From assembly GCA_033439765.1 (NCBI GenBank), contig JAULSN010000003.1, positions 2,294,001-2,358,000 of the forward strand: 64,000 bases of DNA, read 5' to 3'. Position 1 is the stretch's first letter. Every line of letters starts with the position of its first letter. The notes under the pieces were generated by a model that was given only the letters and a program-made list of their open reading frames with translations, did no database searches and was not told the DNA's origin. This DNA comes from Lasiosphaeria ovina. Taxonomy: Eukaryota; Ascomycota; Sordariomycetes; Sordariales; Lasiosphaeriaceae. The position numbers and the translations under genes were made by a program. Below are positions 4,125 through 42,088 of the stretch, piece after piece.

Positions 4125-6362
4125 TAGTAGCGGACAAGAAGAATATGATGTGCGGGAGGCTTAACGTGGCTTTTGGCCCTATCAGCTTGGACCTTGATCC
4201 GTCATTTTATGTTCGCGGCTAGGCCATAGAACGTTGCGTTGTGCCTCAGCACTGGCTCCTGCCCTTGCCCGAGCACTGGCGCTGTGGCTTGCCCTACGGG
4301 GTCTGGGGACACAAACTCTTTTCTTGTTTCCCGTTGTTTGTCTGGGACTATGCGACGGCGCTGGCGGCCTTGGACCCGGCTGGCTTGGTACTTTTGCGGC
4401 TGTCTGCCCTAGGCGTATAAATGGGTACCTCAGTGAGTGCTGGCGCTCTGATTAGGCCTGGCTCTGGAAGCTTCAGGCCGTCAAACAGAATAATGTCATT
4501 CTTTTTGCAAATCTATCTGTCTGAGGTTCACCTCTCTGCAGGGTTACACATGCAGCCAAGTTCTTGTCACGGGATTATCGAAAGGACGGGCTGGTGGGCG
4601 GGCAAACAGCGATTACAGCCCATCCGTCGCTTCCGGTCCATGTGTGTGGCAAAATGCACTCGAAGGGGGCGCGAGGGAGAACCGGAAGTCGGCACAATCG
4701 ACCATTTCATCCCCTTAACCAACAATACCTACCAACGCGCGCGCTCGTCGAAAAGCGAATTTGCTCTCCTATTCTCGGGGATGTTGGGGAAAAGGCCACC
4801 GTTGGGAATCCTGTCAGCCCAATTGGTTTCCGATTGGCTCGCTCAAGTCGATCTGGCTTTAATCTGATTATCTTGCCGTTCTTATTTTCTTGCCCTTCTA
4901 AGTTCTTGCGAAATTCCACATCCCTCCCATTTACTATTTGTTACCGGCGGGGGCCCTGTTTGATACCTCTAGCAGGCCGGGGTTAATGTGACAGCGTGAC
5001 ATCATTAGTTTTAGGTTTTCCGTGGCTAAGATGGGGACTGTGGAAAGATTAAAACCAGCAAGTATTTCAGGGTCCTTTAGGCACAGGCGGCGTATGGGTC
5101 CCAGGAGGAAGCGTATAATCTCGCACCGCGGGAGCACCCGGCGCTCCCCAGTGGGGTGGATATTACAAATACCGATACTAATCGCCCCTGAGTGGCTGAA
5201 ACCGAGCCCCGTCCCTTCCGTCAATCTAACACCTCGATACGCATCCTGTACCACAGCCAACGGCGGGTCCCAGAGATCCATCATGACCAGCCTTGCGAGA
5301 TTGGATTGCGGGGGAATACGTATCTGGGCGGAGGCAGATCCGGGCTACGAAGGAACTTGTCACCACCGCTCCTTTGATCATTTGGAAGCACATCTTCCCA
5401 CTTCCTTCATTGTTCAGTACTACTAACAATCTTTCGAGGAGGTCCCGGGTAATACCGCCGCTGCTCTGGCGTTGAGCGAGTGGCACAGCATGGCACACGA
5501 CACCTGGCCAGAATCTCGCCTTGCTCGGTTTCATGTCCACAATGGAGGAGAGTAATACGGGCTAGGAACCTCACTATTGACGGGCCCCACCAATAAAACA
5601 ACATTGCGCGATCTACGCGCGGCCGCACAGGCAGCTCTTCCCCGCGTCAGCCGCGGCCGCTCTCTGGTCGATTGTGCCGTATTGTGCCAACCCCCGGGCT
5701 GACTAAGCCACAGTTATCTAGCTTATAGGTAGTTAGTGCCGGCCGGGGGATTCTCCTTGTGAAAATTGCCTGGTAGGTAAGAAGAAGACAAGGCATGGCG
5801 GATGTTTTGGCCGCGGCAAGGGGAGATTCATTTTTACGTAAATACGTAAATACGGTCCGTTGTTACCCGGTATTCTGTTTGTCCATTGTCTTCCCTTGCC
5901 TGCAGTCTTTTGTATTACCTGTTGTTCTACTATGTCAGTTTAGTTAGAAGCTTAAATTAGGTCCTTGGCTCGCCTCCGGGACGACCTTGCCCCTCTCCGT
6001 ATTTACTTACACGCAGCGGCATTTTCGTCGTCAACAACGCATTGCTAATATCTAAATGGGGGTGGTAGAAACACCAAAACTAGTCAAAGAGTACCGAGAA
6101 AGAAAGACCTGCCTGCAGCATTGCTCTCGTACCTACTATTCCAGCTTCGTAGGTATATGTGGTTCCTGTACATGATCGGGATTCGCTCGGCACCAGGGCG
6201 GCCATCTTTCCCCCTCCCTCCCTCCCTCCCTCCATCTATCTATCCCCCACGGACTCTCGCCACCGTTCAACATGGAGGAGAGGTGGGCGGGGCACTGCGG
6301 GGGTTTTCCATGTCCCTTGATCAAAAGACTGAGAACAAACGAAACCCGAAAAAAAAGAACAT
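4125..6362. other. Intergenic, no supported gene
   Basis: No reading frame here looks protein-like. The part at about 4431-4760 resembles about 8995-9270 (shared stretches include GGCTCTGGAAGC and CGGCACAATCGAC), so the duplicated unit extends past the partner gene. The rest is unique, with CT-rich tracts near 6210-6245. Confidence 0.5.
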
Positions 6363-7658
6363 TCATACGTTGTGGTGTACGGATTCGGCACGCGCGGGAG
6401 CAGTCAGTTTTGCCGTTGCCGTTGCCGTTGTTGTTGTGGTTTGGCCAGCGAGGGCCGTGACAGCCGGCACAGTAGCTGGTTTTGTCGCTGTGGCTCCGCC
6501 TTGTGCAGGAGAGGCCGGCGGACCAGTCGGTGCAGTGGTTTGCTGCATCGTTATCGTTGTCTTTACGTTGCCGTGTTGCTTGTTCCTGTATGACCACCAG
6601 GATGAGCACGGGCAGTAGGCGAATTAGGCCTGGTGGTTGCGGTGCTTGAGGATGCGGGCGTGGATGCGGACGCGGAACCGGATTTAAGACTAGCCGTGAC
6701 GGCAGAGAAAACACTGCTCGACCTCTTGTAGTAGCGCGACACTCTCTTCATCGAGTCCAGGTTGCTCATGTCCAGGTGCGCGTACACGGGGTCTAGGTAC
6801 TTGTACAGCTCGAGCGATTCCTGGGCCTCGTCGATGGCATGGACGAGAGGCTGTCGGGCATGAATGAGACGTGCTCAAAGTCGACAATGTATGGGTTCAC
6901 ACGGCTCATATCTACCTGGCCCAGTGCCGTGGTGGTGGTGGTGGTGGTGGTGGTTGTGGTTGTGGTTGTGCCGGTTGCTGCCTTATCCTTCTTGAAGAGA
7001 AAGTTGGTCTGGTTGAAGTCAGTATAGCAGAATTTGAAGTCCCTCTCCAGCACGATGGGCTTATACTTCTTTGCGGTCCGCTGGCCCGTTGGACTTTATT
7101 AGGTAGTCAACTGGGGATTCGACTGAGGGTTTGACGTGGGATTTGACGGGAGATTTGATGGGGGGTTCGGCTGTGAGTTTGGTTCTGAATTTGGCTGTGG
7201 ATGTTCCTGTGAATTTGATTTGGCCTTCCCTCGAGGAGCTGTAGCGCGTTTCGTCACTGGACCCTGGATATTGTCGGCCGGAGGGATCTCGCGAAAGACT
7301 CTAATTTCTTCGACAACCAGTTTATAGTACGCCGCGGCCTTGGTGTCGTCAATTCATTTGTAAACTTGTTAATCGGCTTCGAGTCCCGAACGAGCTCTAT
7401 GATTATAACCTCATCATCTTTTGCCGTCCCAGAGAAAAAGAAAAGCTCTGGCACGTGGATGTTGCAGGCTGGGTTATTTTTGCTCTTGATGTGTTCGAAA
7501 GCCAATTTCTGCATTTGTCCCTCGGCCATTACACCGTTTCCCCTCTTGACGAAGACGATAGGGTTGGTGGCTGGGTACTCAAACGTGCGGTTCCCTCGAT
7601 ACCGGGCATCGTTGAGACTTTCTTCAAGTGTCTTCTTGAAATCGGCGGTTTTGGCCAC
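6363..7658 (-). pseudogene. Decayed second copy of the kinase-like gene
   Basis: Translation of the minus strand recovers the intact copy piecewise. The N-lobe section (7658-7350) matches strongly, with IVFVKRGNGVMAEGQ and VIIIELVRDS. The reading frame then shifts near 7350; after the shift come YYKLVVEEIRVFREIPPADN, the catalytic-loop segment FCYTDFNQTNFLF (about 7030) and PYIVDFEHVSFMPDS, a second shift near 6840, and finally an Ala/Thr-rich tail. A TGG trinucleotide run at about 6931-6975 inserts a poly-Thr stretch just before the metal-binding segment. With at least two frameshifts in the conserved core, it is unlikely to encode a working enzyme. Confidence 0.7.
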
Positions 7659-34707: not shown

Positions 34708-34735
34708 AGGGCATCTTATCTCAGTAATTCAGACC
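34708..34735 (+). repeat. Left target duplication and terminal inverted repeat
   Basis: AGGGCATC (34708-34715) followed by TTATCTCAGTAATTCAGACC (34716-34735). The first 12 bases match the right end perfectly in inverse orientation. Confidence 0.9.
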
Positions 34736-35318
34736 TCCTCTCCAGGTGTAGGGGTAGCTTCGCCACCAAGTGTAAAATGACTAAATGAATGGCCCACAAA
34801 GTGGGCCCACTTGCCGGGTCGGACAAACTGCCACCTATTTTATCTGTAAATTTGTCCCGCTAGCCCATTCGAGTACTTAGCATCCCAGACCCACATTTTT
34901 GCGCAGAACACCTGGAAAGGAGGTCTGAGAGCAAAGCTGGATTTTTGGCCCAACGCTTTACGCGCCACCATACAAATCGCGATATTAAAGAAAATTGAAA
35001 TGCGAATAGCCTCATTACCACAACAACTAGAAGGAAGCCGAAATATGTCTGAGGACACTAGAGACGAGGAGATCAATCTGGTAATATTTTGAACGAGTTT
35101 GCATGCAAATTGAAGAAATTGGTACAACTAGACCTTCAAAAGTTATCGCTTTACGCGTTTCGTCTAATCCGATGACCCCCCACCAAAAATGCAGCCAAAA
35201 TAGTTGGCTGTAAAGAAAATTGATGTTGAGAATCCTCTTCTTCTTGACAACCTCGGAGTACTATTTTCAGCCTCTCAATCCGTCTGTTTGCCCTCAAACC
35301 AGTACAAAACGCTCGAGA

Positions 35319-37518
35319 ATGGCCTCTCCAGACGACCTGGAGCTTGTCAGAGCGACCATTTGCTCCATCACTGGCCATGAAACCGCTCGCGAGGGTCAGG
35401 TCCAGGCCGTGGCTCGCCTGGCATTCGAAAAAGCTGACACCGTGCTCGTCGCTGCCACCGGCTACGGCAAAAGCGCAGTTTTATATGCCTGTTCATCGCT
35501 ACTGAAGAAGATCACGGTACAGATTGTGCCGTTAACGAAGCTGGGCGAGAATCAACGGAATGCGATCGCGAAAGACGTTACGGGCGCAAATCCTATATGG
35601 ATCGATGCCGATACGCATCTTAAGGCGAGTTGCGAATGCCCTGTCTTCTTCTTTGGTCGGTAACTAACTCCCTCTATTAATAATCTAGAATCGAGAGATA
35701 TGGAACGAAGTCCGCGACGGAAAATACACGCACGTACTGCTAAGCCCTGAATAAGCCGTCAGCGCCAAATTCAAGGCCGTTTTGAGGGACCCGGGCTTAC
35801 ATACACGTATCGGGCTTTTCGCTATTGACGAGCTACATATCGTCGGGGAATGGCGGGGATTCAGGGAGGAATTCACATACCTACATTCTTTAAGGGCCTT
35901 ATTACCTCGCGCGATTCCCTGGTTTGGTTGTACAGCGACTCTCGACCGGGACAATCAGGAATATATCCTCAAGCATGCCGGCTTCGATCAACAACGCCTC
36001 AAAATCATCAGGACCTCTATTGACAGGCCGGAAATCTCTATCGTCGTCCAGCCTCTGGTACGGGGATATATCAATGACTTCAGGCGCCTAGATTTCCTTC
36101 TCGAGGGAGCAACAAGCGCCACAGTCAAGGAGATTCCAAAGACCATTATCTATATCGATAGCAAGCCGAAGCTCTTAGAAGCTCGGTATTCCTTATGCCG
36201 TTATATACAAGAAGTATGTGGTTTTTCCAAGGAGTTTTCTCGGAAGGTTATCCAGCGTTACGACGCTGATGTCCGCGATGCCGATAAAGACCTCATTTTC
36301 AATAGCCTCGCTTCGGTTGATACAGACTGCCGTATTGTAATGGCGACAGTCTCTCTTGGAATGGGGATGGACCTTCCTGACGTTATTCGCGTGGTCCAAT
36401 TCGGCCTGCCTCGTACCCCGAGCCTCTCCGACATCTGGCAACGAATTAGAAGAGCGTTGCGGAATAAAGAGAAGGCATCACGGCAGGGATTTTCTCAGGG
36501 CACGGCCTATATATTCGTGCCGTACTGGGCATTCAGTCAACTCGGTTCGCTCGAGAAACCTGCTACAAAACCAAAGGCACCAAGGCGACAGCCCCGAGCT
36601 CGTTAATAGAATATACCTGTTGTTGTAAGCCGGCTTCGAACTATGACCTTAGTCGATCGGGATCCTGAAGACGATAAGACTAGTCAGGCTAGTCAAGGAA
36701 GTCAGCTTAGTCAAACATCATAGGCTGAGGCTGAGGCTAAACAGCTTCAATAGCAAGAAGAGGCCCTGGTCTTGAACTCATAGGGACTTTGGGACTTTGA
36801 AGCTCGTTTGAAGTGGTCCAAGCAGGACCTAGCGGCGTAGGAAAAGCTCACGCCAGTTATTAGAAACTGGCTAAATAGCAGCTGCTTCCGGGCTTATATT
36901 CTTGAATATCTTCAAGAGCTTGACGACCCTGACCTGGAATATAAGTATGTAGTAAACCCGGAGCTTTGTTGTAACGGAAAAAACTGCAATCGATCGCTCG
37001 GCCGCGTCCCGGTAATGGTGCCCCGGAATAAGGGCCAAGAGAAGCCAACTGTCGGCTTACTTGCGAGCTTTGCGTTGTTGTAGCTTGAAGACTGGTGTAT
37101 AGAACAAGCATAAAGGCTTGTACCTAAAGAACATCGCCATTTTGATGTTGTTGGCGATATGTGGATGGATCAGAAACTTCAATACGGAATTGCCCGTTTA
37201 TTTGCCTAGGGACCTAGAGGAAAACAAGAGCTTCCTTTCAAGGACGTACCGAGCCTTGTTCAGAAGCTACCTAGCGTTAGGGACTAGGAGTACCTCGAAG
37301 ATAGAGGCGGCGACTTGGTGAGCTTCTATATATAGTCAGTCGCTAGGGTTCATAAGTTGTGGAATGAAGGAAAGAAAAAGAAGGCAGTTGAGAGGGCCGC
37401 AAAGGCTGTAGCAAAGGCAGCGGTTACGCCAAGCAATATCGGGTCTTTAACCCCTAACGACCGCCGGAAGCGGGCGGCCGAGTCGTCGAATCCCTTCGCC
37501 ATACCAGCTATAAAGTGA
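35319..37518 (+). pseudogene. RecQ-like SF2 helicase of the transposon, with 12 in-frame TAA/TAG codons
   Basis: Exon 1 (35319-35624) joins exon 2 (35689-37518) across a 64-bp intron with a GC donor (GCGAGT), CTAAC branch and CTAG acceptor; phase 0 is kept. The frame is 711 codons to TGA 37516. Helicase motifs are plain: Walker A AATGYGKSA, DExH box AIDELH, CTATLD (motif III), VSLGMGMDLPDV (motif V). Motif VI is QRIRRALRN, lacking the usual glycines. The C-terminal ~300 codons form a basic, Gln/Ala-rich region of unknown role. In-frame stops are at 35752, 36604, 36607, 36721, 36751, 36781, 36838, 37081, 37111, 37207, 37285 and 37333, all TAA or TAG, mostly where Gln would fit; no TGA or frameshift occurs. 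Translated normally, it is dead after about 123 codons. Confidence 0.8.
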
Positions 37519-37666
37519 TAAATCGCATCGGAATGATCGGCATATATATATAATATATAGAAAAGAGTAATAAAGAAGAAAGCGACGGTTTACAGTATAT
37601 GTAGCACCTATAAGAGTTAATACGGGAAGGGGGGTCTGGAAAAACAAATCCATTAAGATATATAGT

Positions 37667-37937
37667 CACGTGATGTAAGAGAGGGCAGGTATGCCTGATC
37701 AAGGTGGTCACAATGTGGGCAAGAAGAAGGGCGAGCAATGAGTGGCATTGGCGTAAGACTTCAACCTGGCCCTCGCAAAGGAAGGTGGGCGAGGGCCACT
37801 GCTTATATACATGTTCAGGGGCTCTGTTCCTTGTGACGGCAGTGGTTGTGCCAACTGGCAGTGGTCTGGCCAGTTGGTGACAGGTGGTGGGCGCACACAA
37901 AGGTGTGCGCATGTGCTTGGGGTGCTCTTTCCTTACA
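37667..37937. mobile_element. 271-bp nested insertion, solo-LTR-like, with 5-bp target duplication
   Basis: ATAGT flanks it on both sides (37662-37666 and 37938-37942). Near its ends are TGTAAG (37674) and CTTACA (to 37937), an inverted pair of the kind found at LTR termini, although the left border lies 7 bp outside (CACGTGA). A TATA-like tract on the minus strand (about 37800-37812) fits an LTR promoter. It interrupts the DUF6589-like gene after the codon at 37938-37940 and so is younger than the host transposon. It could also be a small non-autonomous element. Confidence 0.6.
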
Positions 37938-39551
37938 ATAGTTCAATTCTATATGAAAGAATACAGGTACTGGAAGCATCCACTTCTTCTACTCCCACAC
38001 TTCACTAGCCTCTAGCTATGAGTTAAGGATACGGCGAATAAAGGATGTAGTCTTTTGGTCCCCGTAAACGAAGATAAGTCGGTCGATATATTCCTTAAAC
38101 TCCAACCGGTACTTGAAAAGTTCCTCATACAGCTTATAAACACCAGAAATAGTACCTTCATCCTCGAAAATAGCTCCTAGTTATATATAGGGAGACTGCT
38201 GGTATAAGACTCTCTTGACGGCAGGTATTGGAGGGACCTCATCGTCAGACTTGAAGATCTTCATAAAGGAGTACTTCATAAGCCACCGAGAGGCGTTAGT
38301 AATGGTTTGACGCCTCGGGAGGATATATTTAATAACCATTTGACGAGTAAAAGGACTCGTACGGTCAATGCTTGACTAGTTATAAGGACCATTGAATTCC
38401 GGGCATATAATAAGGAGGGAAGTCGTGAGGTTAATAAATTAATCCTATTTACCGCCGGCAAGCTCCTGAATGCGGTTCTTGAAGTTGAAGTTATCGTATA
38501 TAATAACACCATTAGGATCGTGAGCGACCTTCTTAATAGCCCTCACTACCGTAGTCGCCATTCCGTTCAGCATTCTATTGAGAGTCCAGTATAAGGAAAC
38601 AATGCCTAGGTGGTTGAGGGTCTCGATCATACGGCGGGCGGTGCCATTTGCAAGGAGGTAAAGACCGAGAAGATCTCGCAAATAACTGGCTTTGTTACGT
38701 GCAACGCCGCCGAGTAGGAGAGAAACGACGAGGTAAATTTGGCTCTTGAAGTTATCGTCGGCCCGTATACCGGGGATCTCTTTATCTGCGATCCACTGGC
38801 TCTGAAGAACCTGTGATAGGAGCTTCACAGTACTAGGCGCTGAAGTCTTCAGCCGAGGCCAAGCATCATGAAGATGTTCACCAATCCAGCTAGTATTGCA
38901 GAGATCGGCGACCAATGTTGGATTGTTCTTTTGCTGATCAAGGGGCTTGAACTCGCTGAAGGAGGGGGTCTCTTGCAAGGACTTCAACTCCTTACGAATA
39001 TTGGTGGCAACATCAGTCGAATTGATCTCATGGCCAGCCTCCCGAACAACAAGATCTCTCTGAGCGAGGGCATTCTGCAACTCGGGTTGCAACAACACGC
39101 GGCGCAGGTAGCCGGCCCGGCGCGTATTACCGACCCAGGCCACCAGGAAAGACTCGAAGTTGAATGTGCTAGTGCCCTCATCTTCCTGACGTCGGTTCCG
39201 AGCATCTAGGCGCCGCTAGAGCCTGATTATCTCGGAAATAATGTCTTCTTGCTCAGGGTCTTCTTGCTCAGGGTCTTCTTGCACAGGGTCTTCTTGCTGA
39301 GGGTCTTCCTGGCGTTGAGGGCTCGAGGGAGGGGGCTGCGACAGGCTGGAAGACTGCGCATGACCACGCTAGTTGGCCTGAAGGTATCGCCGAGCCCGTG
39401 GAGGAGGTGTAGAGCTTGAGGGAGGTTCAGAGAGGCCCGAGGAAGAAGGCCGAATCGGGAGCGAAGAAATTCGCGATGGTCCGGCGCCTCTGCGCCACGA
39501 AGGCGTGGGCGGGGGGAGCACCGGGACTTCGTCGCTGTCGGAATCGTCCAT
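37938..39551 (-). pseudogene. DUF6589-like gene, candidate transposase, with 8 in-frame TAA/TAG codons and a 3' insertion
   Basis: From ATG 39551 a single frame runs 538 codons to the nested insertion at 37937, with no frameshift and no TGA. The N-terminus is Ser/Pro-rich with a QEDPEQEDPEQED-type acidic repeat. The conserved half contains LRDLLGLYLLANGTARRMI, VIIYDNFNFKNRIQELAGGK and, later, RLIFVYGDQKTTSFIRRI. The YDN-x-N and GDQ-x-T pairs are what I associate with fungal DUF6589 proteins. Two hydrophobic strands each ending in Asp would suit an RNase-H-type (DDE) active site, an inference. Stops: 39369, 39216, 38445, 38439, 38376, 38181, 38016 and 37989 (lowest base of each codon). The C-terminus is cut off by the insertion. 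Confidence 0.7.
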
Positions 39552-39710
39552 TTTCTATCGCCAAAATTAACACCGTTGAAAAGCGCCGATTCTAGCGATC
39601 AGAATGATGCATACGACGTATATTTCCGGGCGGAAATGGTGTTGTTGTTCGTGTTCGTGCAATTGACCGCATCAATGCGTAAAGCAAAGAGCAAAAAATC
39701 GAGAATTGCT

Positions 39711-39843
39711 CTCAGACCAGTGTTGGCCCTGATCCCGTTGCTCGAATATAAAAAGTTCTATTGCTTGGGAAATTATTTTTAAAAGTGGGTCTTACGAGCT
39801 ATTCCTAATAGGGAGCCCCCTCCCTCGCCAACACTGGTCTGAG
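39711..39843. repeat. 17-bp perfect subterminal inverted repeat
   Basis: CTCAGACCAGTGTTGGC at 39711-39727 returns as its exact reverse complement at 39827-39843, 99 bp apart. The outer arm overlaps the right terminal repeat, so a piece of the transposon end is present twice in opposite orientation and could fold into a hairpin or offer two transposase binding sites. Confidence 0.85.
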
Positions 39844-39864
39844 TTTACTGAGATAAAGGGCATC
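39837..39864 (-). repeat. Right terminal inverted repeat and target duplication
   Basis: Read from the plus strand, ACTGAGATAA ends at 39856 and AGGGCATC follows at 39857-39864. Read inward on minus it is TTATCTCAGTAA, then ACTCAGACC. Confidence 0.9.
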
Positions 39865-40195: not shown

Positions 40196-40780
40196 TTCAA
40201 AACGGTTGAGACATCCCCCTTTTTTTCTGCGGCCTGCCCAGCCTGTAATTGCCCTGCCTGCCCGGCCTGCCCTCCCTGCCCTGCCTGCTCTGCCTGCCAG
40301 CCCTGCCAGCCGTGCCAGCCCTGCCCTCCCGTCGTCCTCCCAGCCCCCCTGGCGCCAGCCCCCCCGGCCCCGGTCGACGGCTGGGCCAGTATCTCGGCAG
40401 AGGCGGCGGCCGCATCCGCCGAATGGGCGAAGGTCCAAGCGATAACGAACATTGTGGCCGCTATCGTGGTGGCGGCGGGCGTTGTGGTGGCGCTGCTCAC
40501 CTTCCTGGACGGTGCACCACGACAATGGATAAGCCGTACCATCCGCCGTTCTCGCCTGGCCCTAGCCGGGACCCCGGACCCAGCTCCCGCCGCCCCCCAC
40601 CAACCCCGTGGCCTGGCCGCGGACATCGCGGACATCGCGGCGGCCGCCGCCGCCGCCCATGCCGCCGCCACCGCCTTCGCCGGTCCCGGGAACGCCGCCG
40701 TTACAGCCGCCACCGCCGAGGTCGTTGCCGCCGCCAACAGGGCGGCCGCTTGTCTTCCGCCGCCGCCGACTCTGCAGTAG
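40196..40780 (+). CDS. Doubtful Cys-Pro repeat protein with one membrane segment
   Basis: The frame is open from 40196 and stops at TAG 40778-40780. It reads a Cys-Pro-Ala/Gln tract (units such as CPAC and CQPC, about ten cysteines), a Pro/Ala linker, then VDGWASISAEAAAASAEW and a hydrophobic helix AAIVVAAGVVVALLTFLDG, followed by an Ala-rich tail. The order looks protein-like, but no ATG precedes the Cys tract, so an upstream exon would be required, and GC-rich repeats keep several frames open here. The longer opposite-strand frame is poorer in composition. Confidence 0.25.
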   Translation, partial: FKTVETSPFFSAACPACNCPACPACPPCPACSACQPCQPCQPCPPVVLPAPLAPAPPAPVDGWASISAEAAAASAEWAKVQAITNIVAAIVVAAGVVVALLTFLDGAPRQWISRTIRRSRLALAGTPDPAPAAPHQPRGLAADIADIAAAAAAAHAAATAFAGPGNAAVTAATAEVVAAANRAAACLPPPPTLQ

Positions 40781-40817
40781 CAGCAGCAGCAGCAGCAGCA
40801 CCAGCACCAGCACCAGC
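40781..40817. repeat. CAG/CACCAG microsatellite
   Basis: About seven CAG units followed by CACCAG units. Confidence 0.85.
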
Positions 40818-42088
40818 TGCAGCCGCAACTGCCGCCATTGCCACACGAGCGCCAGACCGGGCTCGGCTCCCGTTTTCGTCGCAACTCGCGAATTCCCATC
40901 CCGGACCCAGAGAGAGGGCAAAGGTATAAATCTAACGCGTCTGAGACTGTCGTGGAGGCCTCTAACTTTATATAAGTAGTCGGACATCGACAAGGGCGAT
41001 CAGGGCAAGCAGCTCTGATACGGCGCCGGCGACGCGTTAAAGCGGTCATTTATGGACACTGATCTTCCATTCCGCCAACCCCCCCTCCCCTTCATTCCGC
41101 ATATCAACCCCCTTGGACCTGACGGCTCAGAGGGCCTGTTTACAGGCGAGCTAGATGGTCGCCACTGTCACACGGTCCAAGCTTACCCGGTTGTGTCCTC
41201 TCACTCCTGAGCGTAGTATGGCTGTTGTGCTGCTGGTTAGTGGGCAATGATCTGGTCTTAGCGCCGGGGAGCCTACGTTCCGAAAACCCTGTTCTTTCTG
41301 ACATCTGCGGCATCTCCGATGGAGCTCTGCCAACGAGGAGGAAGGCAGGTCAAGGGGTGGACAGCAAAGTCGCACTCTACCCCTCCGCGTGGGGCTGTCT
41401 GGGTTCATCAAAACATTCAAGATGAAGCCAAGTAGAGGCGCAAATGGGGGTTGGATTCGCGACACAGGAATCGGCGAAGAGCAGCACGTACCGACCAAAT
41501 GGCCTTCGTGGTTTGCCGGCGACACCATTGCGTACGCCTATTGTTGGCCAGCCCATTCAGTTTATGCGGAAGTAATCGCAACAGAGCAGCCATCGGTGGT
41601 CCCGCCAACGTCACAGGGCCGCATGTCATAACATCTGCTGGTTGCTGAAGTTACCCCCCAGGATCCAAGGCGATCCAAGACCTTGGTGAGCGGGTGTGGG
41701 GGTAGCTTCACCAGTCCAGAGGCCAGTTCCGTCTGTGCACTTGGGATTATCGCGTTCCTGTCGCTTGGTATCGTCAGACGTATCTCCAAGTGACGCTTCT
41801 TATCTCGCGCGAGAGGGTCCTGAAGCTCGAACGTCGCAGTCAAAAATGCCCGGATAGTGTGGGTGAGAGCCCACAGCTGACTACCATTGTCACTCTACAA
41901 ACTACAAATACATCCCGGTCGCAATTGCCAACGTCGCAGCGGGCCTCGTGCACTTTGAGAGTCGATGTAGCCCCAGGTAAAACGACCGACTGACACCAGA
42001 CCATATCCGGGCCGCTGCCTTGGCATATCACACACGCCGTTCCACTCTCCTCGTCCCGAACCAACAGGCCGCCGCGGAGCCCGACACG

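Follow-up and report, generated by a model that had tools for sequence, protein, structure and literature searches.

A multi-copy DNA transposon family of Lasiosphaeria ovina that carries a RecQ-like helicase, with DUF6589 as its probable transposase

Transposons that carry their own RecQ helicase are already known in KolobokH and AcademH. KolobokH combines a Kolobok transposase with a RecQ helicase and is known from fungi only (PMC9587614). A RecQ helicase has also been described in Academ transposons (PMC3627910), and AcademH, which occurs in Basidiomycota, Ascomycota and Mucoromycota (PMC10799480), has target site duplications (TSDs) of 9 or 10 bp (PMC10045372). The literature passages that we drew on give no mechanism for the pairing in either group. 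Here we describe an element in a stretch of 64,000 nucleotides of the Lasiosphaeria ovina genome (contig C23, positions 2294001-2358000 in a 51.7-Mb assembly), the whole of which we call the window. The element belongs to a multi-copy family of RecQ-carrying DNA transposons in this genome, in which the helicase gene is paired with a convergent gene of the Pfam family DUF6589. The evidence points to DUF6589 as the probable transposase of this element.

The element body spans window positions 34716-39856. An earlier note on this DNA had read a perfect 8-bp duplication at both borders, 12-bp perfect terminal inverted repeats (TIRs) and two convergent genes, and all three hold. The duplication, AGGGCATC, lies directly outside the body (Table 1), and the perfect end TTATCTCAGTAA occupies 34716-34727 and, on the opposite strand, 39856-39845. 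The genes are the remains of a RecQ-like helicase, identified by Pfam and PDB matches, and of DUF6589, identified by a hidden Markov model (HMM) and tblastn. Beyond 12 bp the ends read TTCAGACC on the left and ACTCAGACC on the right, the repeat extending imperfectly to about 20 bp (TTATCTCAGTAATTCAGACC / TTATCTCAGTAAACTCAGACC). The note's description of the element as apparently complete was mistaken, as stops interrupt both genes and DUF6589 is truncated at a 264-bp repeat. The window copy is a decayed, internally deleted and defective family member with intact ends.

Searched against the genome, the element finds full as well as partial copies; besides itself, the nine with the best scores are 73-78% identical to it. 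The end pattern TTATCTCAGTAAN{0,4}TCAGAC occurs 18 times in the 51.7 Mb and its reversed control not once, so the ends are not due to chance; for eight of these 18 ends the surrounding sequence examined contained no partner, and they lie outside the elements counted below. The first subfamily comprises five end pairs, which frame elements between 923 and 8173 bp long; each of the five has an exact 8-bp TSD. Ends of the second subfamily are typically TTATCTCAGCAAGCTCAGACCTCTTTTTCAGGCG on the left and TTATCTCAGCAAGCTCAGACCAGTACCGTGGCTC on the right. Of its seven elements, six measure 6.19-6.66 kb and the seventh, on C1, 12.3 kb; the TSDs are exact in four, differ at one and two bases in two, and are absent in one. 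Across all 12 elements with both ends, the 8-bp TSD is exact in nine, altered by transitions only in two and missing in one, and the termini are 5'-TT..AA-3' in every case. Between the subfamilies, about 39-40% of bases are different in each of the two genes, and the subterminal sequences differ too.

Joined flanks with one copy of the 8 bp were used as queries for empty sites of 11 of the 12 elements (C6:302850 was left out, as its flanks do not match). Uninterrupted paralogous empty sites were found in the same genome for three of these 11. The element at C32:131618 has three such sites, on C27, C32 and C28, at 73-89% identity; C32:678211 has one at 80% identity; and C29:2205307 has one at 83%, within a repeat unit directly beside the element. 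The alignments cross the 8 bp without the element, and the 8 bp themselves are identical at two of the five sites, one base off at two and four bases off at one. These sites support insertion with an 8-bp duplication. Shared TIRs, fixed-length TSDs and empty sites are those of a class II TIR (cut-and-paste) DNA transposon family, which is what this probably is.

The element without a TSD, C6:302850-309053, has both ends between flanks that read AGTTCCAA and TCCCCCCC; since a DUF6589 match also lies 4.7 kb away (C6:299859), it may have arisen by recombination between two insertions. About 2.1 kb of nested sequence in the 8173-bp element, on C12, has repeated ends and, by eye, a gag-like frame of 330 aa. 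This stretch sits in the DUF6589 gene, at about 5453-7536 of locus L021 (C12:4823647-4825730). A signature resembling repeat-induced point mutation is present in the copies to a variable degree, with TA/AT values up to 1.49 against 0.62 and 0.75 in two flanks in the window. It is mild in the window copy (0.96-0.97).

The helicase and DUF6589 genes occur together well beyond the window. There are 21 matches to DUF6589 and 27 to the helicase in the genome, some of them pieces of single copies. The two genes lie convergent at 11 loci (Table 1), which take up 11 of the 21 DUF6589 and 12 of the 27 helicase matches. The remaining 10 and 15 matches are pieces or copies without a nearby partner, and the elements at C32:131618 and C6:139688 are deletion derivatives that keep the helicase only. 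Pairwise divergences of the two genes, compared at the seven of 11 paired loci for which both genes were in hand as loci, correlate at r=0.995, a value equalled by 4 of 5040 relabelings and owed mostly to three deep groups. The DUF6589 matches are concentrated on C6 (549880 bp; 7 of 21) and C32 (6 of 21), where some are pieces of one copy.

By sequence comparison, the helicase is of the superfamily 2 (SF2) type, with domains closest to RecQ. It matches Pfam Helicase_C at 40.6 bits (E 3.4e-10), above the cut-off of 23.5, and Pfam DEAD at E 1.3e-4, below that family's cut-off. Against PDB sequences, RecQ 4tmu is matched at E 3.4e-12 and WRN at E 6e-11. At E<=1 there are 39 PDB sequences: 34 bear the names RecQ, WRN, Bloom or Q1/Q4/Q5, a further three are called just 'ATP-dependent DNA helicase', and the last two, with the weakest matches, are unrelated. 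We take ATGYGKS to be a Walker A-like motif, IDELH a DEAH-like motif and SLGMGMDLPDVIRVVQFGLP a further helicase motif. The stops in the window copy were located from its open reading frames (ORFs) against the frame of the C5 copy, and a probable intron lies near 35660-35690, as judged by eye.

The case for DUF6589 as transposase comes from its predicted structure and conserved residues. Matches to hAT and P element transposases were obtained with two models of DUF6589; the predicted fold is RNase H-like, and its nearest structures are the hAT (Hermes) and P element transposases. The proteins were aligned in two sets, A1 (31 of 44) and A3 (32 of 65), those dropped being mostly partial, short or near-identical. 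D, D and E are conserved, with D220, D364 and E622 of protein P0001 as the candidate triad, and a conserved histidine, H399, stands in an [AGV]xxH motif in both alignments. P0001 (786 aa, contig C5) is the intact DUF6589 protein of this genome, and its N-terminus is shorter than in P0002, P0005, P0007 and P0008 (878-918 aa). No ends with TSDs were found in a scan around its locus. Some 0.5 kb past the P0001 start there is, in the opposite orientation, an end of the right type (position 4889 of locus L025, C5:209888).

The window copy of DUF6589 keeps only the N-terminal part and the beginning of the RNase H-like domain. Its HMM match (C23:2331929-2332315, window 37929-38315) covers positions 23-155 of the 410 of DUF6589 and contains two TAG and one TAA. 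In tblastn it is matched by P0001, P0002, P0005, P0007 and P0008, and homology ends at 37932-37938 (residue 512 of 895 in P0002), before the candidate catalytic E, which is absent. The C-terminal half is replaced by the 264-bp repeat; in the C12 copy about 1.2 kb of element sequence occupies this place (locus L021, 3948-5159). This repeat, which resembles a solo long terminal repeat (LTR), has at least 31 other places in the genome at 95-97% identity, a lower bound from the 40 of 195 candidates scored. One copy, C12:3192471-3192738, is flanked by what by eye is a 5-bp TATAT duplication. The 12.3-kb C1 element contains two same-strand copies, C1:8772699 and C1:8778513, spanning 6.08 kb; without this span the element would measure 6.2 kb, which supports the repeat as an LTR. 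The flanks of the repeat in the window do not match, which would fit recombination between two LTR insertions with loss of the intervening sequence.

We put at about 85% the probability that these elements are a class II family whose undeleted members measure about 6.2 kb, with ends TTATCTCAGYAA..CTCAGAC, an 8-bp TSD, and convergent genes for a RecQ-like helicase and a DUF6589 transposase, the helicase acting as an accessory. DUF6589 as the transposase of a RecQ-carrying family has good support. Two results temper this support: within subfamily B alone the divergences of the two genes correlate weakly (r=0.51; 7 of 120 relabelings), and Foldseek alone gave no significant match for the DUF6589 models. 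The expectations of the earlier note are borne out in this one genome. Further copies share this type of end and have 8-bp TSDs, paralogous empty sites exist, ends and genes travel together, and the models give DUF6589 a nuclease-type fold. The transposon type that the note proposed is likewise supported; it is linkage that suggests the helicase may work with DUF6589.

There are several steps at which the two proteins could act. DUF6589 would bind the element ends, cut the element out by means of the candidate D-D-E triad and join the ends to target DNA at an 8-bp stagger, and host repair of the staggered gaps would leave the 8-bp duplication. The RecQ helicase may have an accessory role, unwinding DNA as the element is excised, as it is joined to the target or as the gap is repaired, or it may open DNA at the element ends. 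In Drosophila, a host BLM-type RecQ helicase acts after P element excision and is needed for repair, and interrupted gap repair after excision gives rise to internal deletions of P elements. The transposon-borne helicase could possibly substitute for the host BLM-type enzyme. Internally deleted copies with intact ends (the window copy, C6:139688, C32:131618 and C27:5143515) would fit interrupted gap repair, though the window deletion sits at the LTR and may instead stem from recombination between LTRs.

The strongest alternative identity for the family is AcademH, with DUF6589 being the Academ transposase under its Pfam name and the elements a lineage with a slightly different TSD length; we regard this as a serious candidate, at somewhat less than even odds. 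Both are fungal transposons with a RecQ/SF2 helicase beside the transposase. Named DUF6589 proteins were seen in 11 fungal genera, which we take to be ascomycetes, and DUF6589 is common in agarics; this distribution would agree with that of AcademH. What sets the two apart, as AcademH has been described, is TSD length: 9 or 10 bp there, exactly 8 bp in nine of 12 elements here. For the window copy we considered a 9-10 bp TSD with a shifted repeat end and rejected it. The bases adjoining AGGGCATC mismatch, so the TSD of this copy is 8 bp, which argues against a longer duplication of the AcademH type. The passages found by searching the literature for Academ, helicase and TSD gave no Academ sequence or motif.

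The family may be an Academ variant or it may, possibly, be a new superfamily. In its fullest form, which we consider slightly less probable than the Academ assignment, the latter proposal makes DUF6589 the transposase of an unnamed eukaryotic superfamily with a hAT/P-type fold and an 8-bp TSD. Its own RecQ helicase would be an obligate partner, taking over from the host BLM-type enzyme during excision or gap repair, and this two-gene machine would extend across ascomycetes. The nearest known groups each share some of these features. hAT transposons share the 8-bp TSD (PMC12730594) and the predicted Hermes-like catalytic fold. P elements share the predicted P-like catalytic fold. KDZ elements (Zisupton/Dileera) also occur in fungi, and Zisupton makes 8-bp TSDs (PMC12730594). 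Unlike hAT and P elements, the family here has an extra helicase gene. Where hAT transposases have a C/DxxH motif between the second D and the E (PMC9587614), the DUF6589 alignments show [AGV]xxH at H399, if the two histidines are equivalent. Moreover, 12 DUF6589 proteins or fragments scanned with Pfam gave no match at E<=1 to hAT dimerisation or BED, to THAP or P-element, or to KDZ (PF18758) domains, under filters that drop most matches above E 0.1. A search for KDZ across the genome gave no match, and neither did its positive control. The A1 profile found no relative among PDB sequences, the best match being a nanobody at E 0.44. Pattern searches for DUF6589 in viral contigs gave 24 and 21 matches, none of which was confirmed.

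It is quite unlikely that DUF6589 and the helicase are idle passengers of an element moved through its ends by another transposase, such as one of the hAT type. hAT transposons too usually make 8-bp TSDs (PMC12730594), and defective copies with intact ends exist. Both genes, however, have been kept in two subfamilies that have diverged as far as given above, and a pure passenger role for DUF6589 is improbable because its own predicted fold is that of a transposase. The ends, TTATCTC, are also unlike the hAT consensus. KolobokH, a fungal DNA transposon with a RecQ helicase, was rejected as highly improbable, since Kolobok has TTAA duplications and 5'-RR..YY-3' termini (PMC9587614) in place of the variable 8 bp and TT..AA ends found here, where the helicase is a separate convergent gene.

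With the preferred reading, a RecQ-carrying family moved by DUF6589, a Pfam family until now of unknown function gains a testable one, that of a DDE transposase. The elements also add a clean case of a transposon carrying its own RecQ helicase. As repair of fly P elements needs host BLM, such elements could be used to ask what a transposon-borne RecQ contributes, be it to excision, to target joining or to the repair of the gap. The word DUF6589 was not found in the literature searched. Text matches to its accession, PF20231, were discarded, being a database name (k2_pluspf_20231009) or a steel or an optics paper.

Table 1. Features of the window element and loci in the genome at which the helicase and DUF6589 genes are convergent.
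Feature	Position	Strand	Basis
TSD, left copy, AGGGCATC	34708..34715	.	read from sequence
Left TIR, TTATCTCAGTAATTCAGACC, first 12 bp perfect	34716..34735	+	sequence and genome pattern search
RecQ-like helicase gene remains, with in-frame stops	35319..37518	+	ORFs, Pfam, PDB, C12 DNA homology; borders by eye
264-bp solo-LTR-like repeat, TG..CA	37674..37937	.	borders by eye; repeat copies; C12 comparison
DUF6589 (candidate transposase) gene remains, stop-broken	37938..39551	-	HMM, tblastn; start by eye as in C12 copy
Right TIR, inward on - strand TTATCTCAGTAAACTCAGAC, first 12 bp perfect	39837..39856	-	sequence and genome pattern search
TSD, right copy, AGGGCATC	39857..39864	.	read from sequence
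Convergent-pair loci	window C23, C12, C5, C1, C6:304-308 kb, C28		
Convergent-pair loci, continued	C32:599 kb, C32:679 kb, C32:411-413 kb, C29, C7		

Beside the element, at window positions 40200-41049, both strands contain long overlapping open frames rich in Ala, Gly and Pro.

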